From Gemmataceae bacterium (GTDB lineage Bacteria; Planctomycetota; Planctomycetia; Gemmatales; Gemmataceae): a DNA stretch of 64,000 nt. Position 1 is the first letter of the stretch, and each line of letters begins with the position of its first letter. Location of the stretch: contig JAKEET010000147.1 in assembly GCA_022616435.1 (NCBI GenBank), positions 1-64,000 of the forward strand. Direction: 5' to 3'. The notes under the pieces are model-generated. The model saw only the letters and a list, made by a program, of their open reading frames with translations. It was not told the DNA's origin and did not search any database. Both the position numbers and the translations under genes were made by a program. This document shows, in pieces, positions 8,616 to 15,353 of this stretch.

Positions 8616-9929
8616 ATGGACAACACCGCCATCCAATCCGACGGCACGGCGGCGCGGCCGGTCGCGCCGACCGCGATCCAGACAAAGGCGCCCTACCCTG
8701 CCGTCCACGCCAATGGCGCGCCGGCGCCGCTGGTGTCGCTGGCGCCGGGTTCGGTCTTGAGGCAGGTGCTGGAGCCGATCGCGTCGCTGCGGTTGACCGT
8801 GGCCTTGTTCGCCCTGTCGCTCGTCCTGGTCTTCTACGGCACGTGGGCGCAGGTCGATGAAGGAATCTGGTACGTCGTCAGCAAGTACTTCCGCAGCTTG
8901 TGGGTGTGGATCCCGCTCGACGTGATCCTGTTCCATTCGATCGATGAAAGCCCGTTCTTGATCCCGTTTCCCGGCGGCTGGCTCCTGGGGGGCTTGCTCT
9001 TGACCAACCTGCTGGCCGCCCATGCCCTGCGGTTCAAGATGACCTGGCAGCGCTCCGGCATCTTCGTGCTGCACGCCGGGTTGATCGTGATGATGCTCGG
9101 CGAATTCTTCACGGGGCTGACGGCGACGGAAGGGATCATGTCGATCGTCGAAGGCCAATCCAGCAATTACGTCGAGAACTACCACAAGGCGGAGCTGGCG
9201 GTCGTCAACATCGCCGACCCGAAATGGGACGACACGGTCGCCATCCCGAATGAGGTGCTGCGCCGCGGCCTGGTCAGCCATCCCAACCTGCCCTTCGATA
9301 TTGAGCTGGTCAAGTACATGCTCAATTCGGTGAGCGAGGACCCCGATCCCGCCCAGAAGAGCCTGGCGACCGCCGGCTTTGGCTTGGACGCCGCCGTCAC
9401 GGAAATCCCGGTCTTCTCCGGCGCCGACCCGAACCAGAAGTTCGATCATCCCGCGGCGTACATCACCCTCAAGGACAAGCAGACCGGCAAGGCCATCGAC
9501 ACCTACCTGGTCCGCTTCGACTGGAAGCCGCAGAAGCTCAGCGTCGACGGCCAGACGTATGAGATCGCGCTGCGGCCGACGCGTTCCTACCGCGATTTCA
9601 GCGTCCACCTGGACAAGGCGACGTTCAAGGTCCATCCGCGCACCAAGAAGGCCAAGGATTACTCCAGCTACGTGCGGATCATGGACGAGGGTGGCAAGGA
9701 AGTGCGCTCGGCCCGCATCTTCATGAACCATCCGCTCTATTTCAACGGCGAGACGTACTTTCAGTCGAGCATGGCCGTCGACGCCCGGCCGCTCGTGACC
9801 GGCCTGCAAGTGGTGTACAACTGGGCCTGGCCCATGCCGTACATCTCGTGCGTCATGGTCGCGATGGGGATGCTGCTCCACTTCGGCATGAACCTATGGA
9901 CGTTCCTCCAGCGGAGGATCATGACATGA
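8616..9929 (+). CDS. resB: Cytochrome c biogenesis protein ResB-like
   Basis: A 437-residue protein with hydrophobic segments near residues 60-80, 110-140 and 150-170, a large periplasmic domain, and a last membrane segment near 400-425. This is the ResB/Ccs1 layout. In System II, ResB and CcsA together deliver and attach haem to apocytochromes c on the outer face of the membrane. Family-like stretches are LEPIASLRLTVALFALSLVL near the start and SYVRIMDEGGKEVRSARIFM, NHPLYFNGETYFQSS towards the end. ATG 8616 (MDNTAIQ) follows the lipoprotein gene. The stop overlaps the CcsA start (ATGA), so the two are translationally coupled. Confidence 0.88.
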   Translation: MDNTAIQSDGTAARPVAPTAIQTKAPYPAVHANGAPAPLVSLAPGSVLRQVLEPIASLRLTVALFALSLVLVFYGTWAQVDEGIWYVVSKYFRSLWVWIPLDVILFHSIDESPFLIPFPGGWLLGGLLLTNLLAAHALRFKMTWQRSGIFVLHAGLIVMMLGEFFTGLTATEGIMSIVEGQSSNYVENYHKAELAVVNIADPKWDDTVAIPNEVLRRGLVSHPNLPFDIELVKYMLNSVSEDPDPAQKSLATAGFGLDAAVTEIPVFSGADPNQKFDHPAAYITLKDKQTGKAIDTYLVRFDWKPQKLSVDGQTYEIALRPTRSYRDFSVHLDKATFKVHPRTKKAKDYSSYVRIMDEGGKEVRSARIFMNHPLYFNGETYFQSSMAVDARPLVTGLQVVYNWAWPMPYISCVMVAMGMLLHFGMNLWTFLQRRIMT

Positions 9930-11743
9930 ACAAGTCCGTGAACTGGGCGCCCTGGGCCGCGGTGGCCGTCGCCATCCTGTACCTGGCGGTCAAAACAATC
10001 CAGCCCGGCGAGGCCGACGGCGAATTCCGCTGGTCGGAGGCCGCGAGGCTGCCGGTCCAGGACGAGGGCCGCGTGCAGCCGTTGGATACGTTCGCCAGGG
10101 TCAAGCTCTTGCAGCTCAGCCATCGCCAGGGCCTGACCCATGGAAAGTGGGAACAGGACCCGGACCTGCCCGACAAGGACATCCTCAAGGACCCGGTGCG
10201 CATTTCCCCGACGCAATGGGCCGTGCAGGCGATGTTCATCTCGGCCCGCGAGGACAAGGAGCTGCTCAATTACCGCATCTTCCGCATCGACAACGAGCAG
10301 CTGGTGGACGCGTTGAAGCTGCCGATGCGGCCGGGGAGCTGGCGCTACTCGTTCAACGAATTCGCCGAGAAGGACGAGTTCAACAAGCTTGTCGATCGGC
10401 TCGTGGAGCAGAAAGGGCCGAAGAAGGACGACGTGTTCGAGAACAAGGTGGCCGAGCTGTGGGAGCAGTTCGTCGTCTTCATGAAGTTGACGCGTCTGGA
10501 AGTCGGCCTGGTGCCGCCCGAAGGCGTGCGGCATCCGGATGTGCCGTGGCTGTCGCTGACCTCCGCCGCGCAACTGGGCGGGGAGAATCGCGTCCTCGAC
10601 TTCTATCGCGCGATGGTGACCGCCTACGCCAACAACAAGCCGGCCGAGTTCAACGAAGCGGTCGAGGAATATCAAAAGTACCTGCAGAAGAACCGGCCCA
10701 GCGACTACCATTCGGCCCGGCTCGAAGCGTTCTTCAATCATTTCGAGCCGTTCTACCAGTGCACCATCCTGTACGGCCTGATCTTCCTGATCGGGTGCGC
10801 GTCGTGGCTGGTCTGGGGCCCGCAGCTTCGCAGCGTGGCCGTGGCCCTGACCATCCTGACCGTCCTGGTGCACACCTGGGCCCTGATCATGCGCATTTAC
10901 ATCACGGGCCGGCCGCCGGTGATCAACCTGTATTCCACCGGCATCTTCATCGGCTGGGGCTGCGTGCTGATCGGGATGTTCCTGGAATGGCTTCTCAAGA
11001 ACGGCATGGGCATCGTCGTGGGCGCCGTCTGCGGCCTGCTCACCTTGATCATCGCCCACAACCTGGTTTCGGGCGACACCATGGGCGTCCTGGAAGCGGT
11101 GCTCGACACCAACTTCTGGCTGGCGACGCACGTGATCGCCATCAACTTTGGCTACACGGCGGTCTTCGTGGCCGGGTTCCTGGGGATCATGTACATCGGC
11201 GCCGGCGTGCTGACGTCGATTCAGAATTACCTCGGCGTCAACAACCCGCCGCAGCGCATGGACGCGTTCCGCGACCTGGCGAAGATGATCTACGGCGTCA
11301 CCTGCTTCGCGGTGCTGTTGAGCTTCGTGGGCACCGTGCTGGGCGGCATCTGGGCGGACGAATCGTGGGGCCGATTCTGGGGCTGGGACCCGAAGGAAAA
11401 CGGCGCGCTCATGATCGTGATCTGGACGGCGCTGGTGCTGCACGCCCGCTGGGGGGGCATCGTCAAGGCCCGTGGGCTGGCCAACCTCGCCATCTTCGGC
11501 AACTGCGTCACCGCCTGGTCGTGGTTCGGCACCAACCTGCTCGGCGTGGGCCTGCACTCGTACGGCTTCATGAAGGGAGCGATGTTCTGGCTCTTGGTGT
11601 TCGTGCTCTCGCAGCTCGTCATCATCGGCATCGGCTGCCTGCCGTTGAGCGCGTGGGCGACCGCGGCGCGGCCGACGCCCCCGGCCGGCAACGAACCGGC
11701 CCCCAAATCTTCGGCGCGCGCGTCCCTGGCGGCGCCGGCGTGA
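9926..11743 (+). CDS. ccsA: Cytochrome c biogenesis protein CcsA
   Basis: A 605-residue CcsA/CcmF-superfamily membrane protein. The haem-handling WWD-type motif is visible as WGRFWGWDPKENGALM in the C-terminal third, within about eight membrane helices (residues 280-580). An N-terminal anchor (about 8-25) and a soluble region of about 230 residues precede the core; this extended N-terminus is seen in planctomycete versions. Function in System II is haem export and ligation with ResB. The start overlaps the ResB stop. The nearby small c-type cytochrome at 14928 is a plausible client. Confidence 0.9.
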   Translation: MNKSVNWAPWAAVAVAILYLAVKTIQPGEADGEFRWSEAARLPVQDEGRVQPLDTFARVKLLQLSHRQGLTHGKWEQDPDLPDKDILKDPVRISPTQWAVQAMFISAREDKELLNYRIFRIDNEQLVDALKLPMRPGSWRYSFNEFAEKDEFNKLVDRLVEQKGPKKDDVFENKVAELWEQFVVFMKLTRLEVGLVPPEGVRHPDVPWLSLTSAAQLGGENRVLDFYRAMVTAYANNKPAEFNEAVEEYQKYLQKNRPSDYHSARLEAFFNHFEPFYQCTILYGLIFLIGCASWLVWGPQLRSVAVALTILTVLVHTWALIMRIYITGRPPVINLYSTGIFIGWGCVLIGMFLEWLLKNGMGIVVGAVCGLLTLIIAHNLVSGDTMGVLEAVLDTNFWLATHVIAINFGYTAVFVAGFLGIMYIGAGVLTSIQNYLGVNNPPQRMDAFRDLAKMIYGVTCFAVLLSFVGTVLGGIWADESWGRFWGWDPKENGALMIVIWTALVLHARWGGIVKARGLANLAIFGNCVTAWSWFGTNLLGVGLHSYGFMKGAMFWLLVFVLSQLVIIGIGCLPLSAWATAARPTPPAGNEPAPKSSARASLAAPA

Positions 11744-14238: not shown

Positions 14239-14245
14239 GGAGGTA
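14239..14245 (+). promoter_or_regulatory. Strong Shine-Dalgarno site
   Basis: AGGAGGT lies about 6-12 bases before the ATG at 14251. Such a full match is unusual among the genes of this window, most of which have weak or no ribosome sites. Confidence 0.8.
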
Positions 14246-14250
14246 GGTAC

Positions 14251-14784
14251 ATGTACAAGCGTGTTCCTGTGGGAGCATGTGCGCTGGCGGCGTTCGCGAT
14301 GAGCGCCGCGCTGGCGGGCGATGCTCTCAAGTCGGGCCCGCAGCCCGGCAAGAACATTCCCGGCCCGTTCCATCCGACGAACGTGACCGGGGCCCAGGCC
14401 GGCAAGAAGCATTGCTTGGTCTGACAGTACGGCGGCAGCGCAGTCGCAATGGTCTTTTCTCGTACGACCAGCGACGCCTTGACCAGTTTGGTCAAGAAGC
14501 TCGACAAGACGCAGGTCAACAGCTTTGTCGTTTTCCTCAGCGACGACGAAGAGCTTGAGGGCAAGTTGAAGACGTTGGCCGAAAAGGCCGGCATCAAGAA
14601 GACCGTCTTGGCCATCGACAATGTGGCGGGCCCCAAGGCGTACAACGTCGCCAAGGACGCCGAAGTGACCGTCGTGTTCTACAACGCACGCAAGGTTGAG
14701 GCCAACCACGCTTTCAAGAAGGGCGAGTTCAACGCGAAGGCCATCGAGGCCGTCATGGCGGATCTGCCCAAGATCCAGAAGTAA
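14251..14784 (+). CDS. Secreted thioredoxin-like protein with in-frame UGA at CxxU: candidate selenoprotein
   Basis: A 177-residue open frame interrupted only by one TGA (14422-14424). It has a signal peptide (MYKRVPVGACALAAFAMSAA, cleavage near LAGDA), the leader GPQPGKNIPGPFHP, then H54-C55-L56-V57-UGA58-Q-Y-G-G, and a thioredoxin-like C-terminal half (SFVVFLSDDEELEGKL; VLAIDNVAGPKAYNV; VTVVFYNARKVEANHAF). The UGA falls exactly where a redox CxxC second cysteine would be. The frame, composition and similarity to secreted planctomycete proteins run on undisturbed on both sides. A strong AGGAGGT ribosome site at about 14239 precedes the ATG, and an intrinsic terminator follows. A small stem-loop downstream of the UGA (14432-14436 with 14443-14447, 6-base loop) is a candidate SECIS. 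The alternative is a single-base nonsense mutation of a Cys codon. Confidence 0.72.
14432..14447 (+). promoter_or_regulatory. Candidate SECIS-like stem-loop after the UGA
   Basis: GCGGC (14432-14436) can pair with GTCGC (14443-14447, one G-U pair) around the loop AGCGCA, beginning 7 bases after the UGA. Outer pairing GTACG (14427-14431) with CGTAC (14461-14465) is also possible. The spacing is shorter than usual for bacterial elements, so this is tentative. Confidence 0.3.
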
Positions 14785-14813
14785 TCCGGTTCATCGCGGA
14801 CCATGAACGACAG

Positions 14814-14846
14814 GCGCTGCCGAGGCTGCTCGGCGGCGCTTTTTTT
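14814..14846 (+). terminator. Rho-independent terminator
   Basis: An 11-base-pair GC-rich stem (14814-14824 with 14829-14839, one G-U pair), a 4-base loop and a run of seven T. It is 30 bases after the stop of the candidate selenoprotein gene and separates it from the downstream cytochrome gene. Confidence 0.9.
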
Positions 14847-14927: not shown

Positions 14928-15353
14928 ATGAAGCGATGGGCGATCATCACCGCGATCATGGTCGCGCTCGCCGCCGCCGCCGCCGCGGCCGTGCGCGCTC
15001 AACAAGGTTCCTTCGACAAGCTGTCGGCGGCCGACCGCCAGGCTTTTCAAGAGCGCTTCGCCAAGGACATCTGGCCGCTGCTGCAGCGCAACGGCAAGAA
15101 CGGCTGCGTCGGCTGTCATTCCGGCAAGATCGTGTCGGCGCTGCATTTGACCGGCCAGGTGGAGAGAGATTTCCCGATGCTGCTGCGCGAGGGCTTCTTC
15201 ATCCCCGACGACGCCGGCAGCTTGTTGGGCCGCATTACGGACAAAGACCCGGAGCGGCGCATGCCGCGCAGCAAGGTCGGGCTCTGGACCGACGCCGAAA
15301 CGAAGCTGCTCGCCCAATTCGTGGCGGACTTGGACAAGAAGCAGCGGAATTGA
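14928..15353 (+). CDS. Small periplasmic c-type cytochrome
   Basis: A 141-residue exported protein. It has an N-terminal signal with an alanine run (MKRWAIITAIMVALAAAAAA) and a single haem-binding motif CVGCH (C60, C63, H64), so it should be matured by the ResB/CcsA system encoded just upstream. The rest (WPLLQRNGKNG before the motif; RITDKDPERRMPR and the closing helix LLAQFVADLDKK) resembles the short cytochrome modules that planctomycetes often fuse to DUF1549/DUF1553 proteins, here as a separate gene. Met in RRMPR is a plausible distal ligand. Role in electron transfer is inferred. Confidence 0.82.
   Translation: MKRWAIITAIMVALAAAAAAAVRAQQGSFDKLSAADRQAFQERFAKDIWPLLQRNGKNGCVGCHSGKIVSALHLTGQVERDFPMLLREGFFIPDDAGSLLGRITDKDPERRMPRSKVGLWTDAETKLLAQFVADLDKKQRN

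Follow-up and report, generated by a model that had tools for sequence, protein, structure and literature searches.

The gene at positions 14251-14784 of the analyzed window (the whole stretch of DNA, 64 kb of a 6.4-Mb MAG that is 79% complete) is very probably a selenoprotein gene, in which UGA is decoded as selenocysteine through SelB recruited by a downstream RNA hairpin, H2, with another hairpin, H1, serving as a spacer, and the product is an exported redox protein. In the proposed mechanism, the ribosome would read the UGA codon as selenocysteine while the apical hairpin H2 recruits SelB carrying Sec-tRNA(Sec); by folding up about 33 nt of the intervening mRNA, H1 would bring H2 within a workable distance of the ribosome. 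The SelB contact with H2 is inferred, and incorporation of selenium into the protein remains unproven. The features of the locus are listed in the Table.

Table. Features of the proposed selenoprotein gene and its surroundings (positions in the window)
Feature	Positions	Strand	Basis or details
Shine-Dalgarno AGGAGG	14240-14245	+	direct sequence reading, before ATG
Proposed selenoprotein gene, 177 residues with UGA = Sec, CLVU	14251-14784	+	homologues, model, fold matches, dN/dS
Predicted N-terminal signal peptide region, approximately residues 1-23	14251-14320	+	pattern MYKRVPVGACALAAFAMSAALAGD; inference
CxxU motif C55-L-V-U58	14413-14424	+	translation; first Cys invariant in alignment A1
UGA codon read as selenocysteine (proposed)	14422-14424	+	homologue codon column TGA/TGC/TGT
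H1 hairpin	14443-14475	+	lower stem 14443-14447/14471-14475
H1 upper stem and loop	14450-14454/14466-14470; loop 14455-14465	+	sequence variable, structure conserved
H2 hairpin, proposed SelB-binding SECIS hairpin	14478-14496	+	stem 14478-14484/14490-14496; loop AGUUU 14485-14489
Intrinsic terminator, 13-bp hairpin then T run	14812-14841	+	

The reading frame has the form M...CLV-TGA-QYGG...K-TAA and contains exactly one internal stop, which direct reading places at the fourth position of a CxxC motif, as had been stated in an earlier note made from the sequence alone. Standard ORF calling splits the gene, listing in this frame just one ORF of 111 residues, which begins downstream of the TGA. 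The full Shine-Dalgarno sequence and intrinsic terminator reported in that note are both present, and its view that the locus is not decaying DNA agrees with dN/dS values of 0.04-0.28 downstream of the TGA in the pairs tested; as judged from these comparisons, the C-terminal half of the protein is under purifying selection.

Homologues were found in at least 105 of the 119 genomes (among the matches listed), the matched relatives including records named Gemmataceae and Zavarzinella formosa, which identifies the host as a planctomycete. A first scan of genome contigs with the single protein had given no match. The alignment of homologues that the earlier note had proposed yielded only TGA or Cys codons in the UGA column (56 TGA, 40 TGC and 1 TGT among 97 homologues, with no third kind), a pattern far beyond chance, and no further in-frame stop was seen in these sequences. 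The TGA-containing homologues come from many genera, and TGA is also found at this column in further lineages of the phylum. The Cys-containing secreted planctomycete homologues mentioned in the note do exist; other members of the same planctomycete family carry Cys at the proposed Sec position. In the tree the members group by Sec and Cys type, with 6 label changes versus 31 in shuffles.

Several members deviate from the general pattern. One TGT (Cys) member retains a perfect H2 (L118, G109:C2), probably a relic of a recent Sec-to-Cys reversion. One family member has Arg at the Sec column (CLVR, L193), and two distant TGA members (CPVU KYGPRPAV, L245 and L246) lack H2 at its usual place. The host genome itself encodes a second TGA family member, with CPVU and an exact H2 (L004, G000:C180:44420-44962).

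The host MAG encodes most of the selenocysteine machinery. The genome search proposed earlier recovered selA, selB and selC: a tRNA-Sec with anticodon UCA (72.9 bits), SelA, and SelB with EF-Tu, SelB-barrel and winged-helix domains. It did not recover selD, for which the best match in this 79% complete MAG is below the cut-off; this selD-like match (L026) reads, by inspection, as a thiamine-phosphate kinase (ThiL-like). Since selD over the cut-off is present in 81 of the 119 genomes searched, its absence here is most simply explained by incompleteness. Among the matches listed, 47 of the 48 genomes that carry a TGA homologue also have tRNA-Sec or selD, and only Cys forms occur in 26 of the 27 genomes having homologues but neither tRNA-Sec nor selD. 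These counts are descriptive, as the species are related and many genomes are incomplete; to incompleteness we also attribute the lack of a strong tRNA-Sec match in 10 genomes with a TGA homologue. One TGA family member has a tRNA-Sec gene immediately upstream of it (locus L086, G075:C5:90415-91161).

The stability of hairpin windows was compared with codon-randomised controls (z), in TGA and Cys genes separately. Unusual stability is seen at two places in TGA genes but not in Cys genes, H1 (approximately +18 to +54, the hairpin itself at about +20 to +54) and H2; in the H2 window (+54 to +78) the mean z is -2.84 in TGA genes versus -0.12 in Cys genes. H2 occupies +56 to +74, reads CUUGACC-AGUUU-GGUCAAG in this gene and is near-invariant (CUUGACC-AGUYU-GGUCAAG) across TGA genes; the second position of its loop is an invariant G (alignments A2 and A5), and the base after it is U or G. 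In the 6.4-Mb host genome the H2 consensus has exactly two occurrences, at the two TGA homologues. Taken together, H1 and H2 have 90.9% of cells paired, with double-sided changes at 10 of 17 pairs; this was reached in none of 500 shuffles, and all slid controls were far lower. RNAalifold alone retrieves only H2, as H1 shifts in register from one sequence to another. The hairpin at 14432-14447, suggested earlier as a SECIS candidate, does exist, but it lacks conservation and is not the SECIS: in TGA genes the region +3 to +39 shows no excess stability.

As H1 and H2 were discovered on the initial sequences, an out-of-sample set of 16 TGA members from other planctomycete lineages was collected by profile search. 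All 16 share the TGA column and the placement of H2, with 100% of H2 cells paired and double-sided changes; the stem variants include UUCACC/GGUGAA, CUUGGCC/GGCCAAG and CUGAUC/GAUCAG. The mean z is -2.72 for H1 and -3.05 for H2, and both hairpins beat the codon-randomised controls in every sequence. That this tandem organization is a phylum-wide planctomycete SECIS, in which SelB binds a near-invariant hairpin some 60 nt from the UGA that is made functional by an obligatory, sequence-variable spacer hairpin, is reasonably likely, though less certain than the selenoprotein assignment itself. The probable role of H1, that of a folded spacer, is an inference.

A third candidate selenoprotein of the host genome (L125:1233-1790, G000:C87 near 29522) is a secreted AhpC/TSA peroxiredoxin with an in-frame TGA that places U at the peroxidatic Cys position. 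Its TGA is followed by a two-mismatch match to H2, UUGAGC-AGUUU-GCUCAA, in which the two stem changes compensate each other. The hairpin comes 34 nt after the TGA, with its loop at a spacing of 37 nt, and there is no evident H1. Sec-containing peroxiredoxins are already known (PMC13188914).

The codon column, the machinery genes and the covarying hairpins lend strong support to the earlier proposal that UGA encodes selenocysteine in a secreted, thioredoxin-like protein with a CxxU motif, and other explanations have to be weighed against these observations. The simplest of them, a C-to-A nonsense mutation of a TGC codon giving a pseudogene, or a sequencing error, draws on the single base separating TGA from TGC, and one homologue has the look expected of such an event (L073, a TGA member deep in the Cys clade and without H2). 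For the gene studied here it is refuted by the conservation of the TGA and the hairpins: the same column holds TGA in homologues from many genera and further lineages of the phylum, the downstream half is selectively maintained, and the hairpin system is tied to TGA, leaving this explanation a practically negligible chance. It is also very improbable that a suppressor or reassigned tRNA inserts a different amino acid at the UGA, or that this codon is a regulated stop yielding a 57-residue peptide with leaky readthrough. The absence of proteomics and the missing selD leave some room for this, but TGA is the ordinary terminator of homologous genes (e.g. L002 in the host genome, and L029), the alternative residue in the 97 homologues is always Cys, selA, selB and selC are present, and H2 has a SECIS-type loop.

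The division of labour between the hairpins is a separate question within the selenoprotein reading. H1 could be the SelB-binding SECIS and H2 an accessory or pausing structure, which is compatible with the position of the H1 loop, some 30-34 nt past the UGA and within the published limits of 16-37 nt. Still, the loop and sequence of H1 vary and mostly lack a G at loop positions 1 and 2, while H2 is near-invariant and has a G[U/G] loop; moreover, an H2-like hairpin serves the peroxiredoxin gene without H1, and the TGA-containing selD genes of relatives have hairpins with comparable GGUYC-type loops at canonical spacing. We consider this assignment unlikely, and prefer H2 as the hairpin recruiting SelB.

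As for the protein, no Pfam model, no NCBIfam model over the curated cut-off and no PHROGs family matches it, and no relative emerged when plasmid, PHROGs, solved-structure and Pfam sequences were searched. The predicted structure (mean pLDDT 87.9) is confident past the signal peptide region, which forms its low-confidence start. The fold search gave 219 PDB matches at E <= 0.001, and the 50 listed are of the thioredoxin-like, peroxiredoxin, deiodinase or Sco type; the product is thus predicted to have a thioredoxin-like fold. Once exported, it could take part in extracytoplasmic thiol redox chemistry or in peroxide defence, with C-x-x-U working as a selenenylsulfide/selenol-thiol redox couple. 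A role in thiol redox reactions outside the cytoplasm is likely, with both export and the redox substrate being inferred. ResB-like and cytochrome c assembly (CcsA-type) genes lie upstream (8616-11743), and a gene for a CxxCH protein just downstream (14928-15353). This context was considered as a guide to function and rejected: no neighbour recurs at 79 homologous loci, whose flanks spanned at most 1.5-4 kb, and with no conservation of the neighbours among the relatives examined, gene context gives no function.

Within the open literature searched, both the secreted redox selenoprotein family and its SECIS architecture, as a variant, are apparently new. The family is not recognisable in the 2026 table of prokaryotic selenoproteins, and planctomycetes are not mentioned in the main text of three papers on prokaryotic selenoproteins (PMC13188914, PMC12013277, PMC5029168). 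A planctomycete genome paper reports sec genes and selenoproteins, and its main text, to which our comparison is limited, names other families (PMC4807772). Identity with the family GOS_A (PMC2398784), for which there is no sequence to compare, cannot be excluded. The finding adds a selenoprotein family that ordinary annotation truncates at UGA, in a phylum not mentioned by the 2026 review of prokaryotic selenoproteins. Moreover, a natural SECIS outside the spacing rule used by search programs means that such genes may be missed systematically. The reach of SelB from the UGA and the use of an intervening hairpin as a spacer become testable.

Compared with known proteins, the product resembles TlpA/ResA-type oxidoreductases and peroxiredoxins (4nmu, 1su9, 1psq, 3drn) in fold, with a TM-score of about 0.5-0.6 by query length, but has only 11-20% identity to these structures. 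In canonical Trx/TlpA proteins CxxC directly follows the first core strand, whereas here CxxU (55-58) precedes the strand 65-70 of the predicted secondary structure, the one expected ahead of a canonical CxxC; CxxU may, by this inference from secondary structure only, occupy a non-canonical place in the fold. The CxxU thioredoxin-like selenoproteins (SelW-like, Trx7/PDZ NF041199; PMC13188914, Table 1) share with it CxxU, the predicted fold and the existence of Cys homologues, but the product studied here is over the cut-off of no NCBIfam or Pfam model.

The bSECIS model requires a G at one of the first two positions of the loop, then G or U (PMC13188914, Fig. 2), and, for most elements, 16-37 nt between UGA and the apical loop (PMC13188914). 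H2 is similar in having a 7-bp stem, a loop of the form N1-G-[U/G]-N-N2 and a location in the coding region downstream of UGA, but differs in that its loop begins after a 60-nt spacing (14425-14484), outside the range, with the second conserved hairpin occupying the gap. The rules are thus split between the hairpins, H2 passing the loop rule and failing the spacing, and H1 passing the spacing and mostly failing the loop rule. The SECIS of E. coli fdhF is a single hairpin close to the UGA with the loop GGUCU; the same loop is found in several members of the family described here, which differ from fdhF in having tandem hairpins instead of a single one.
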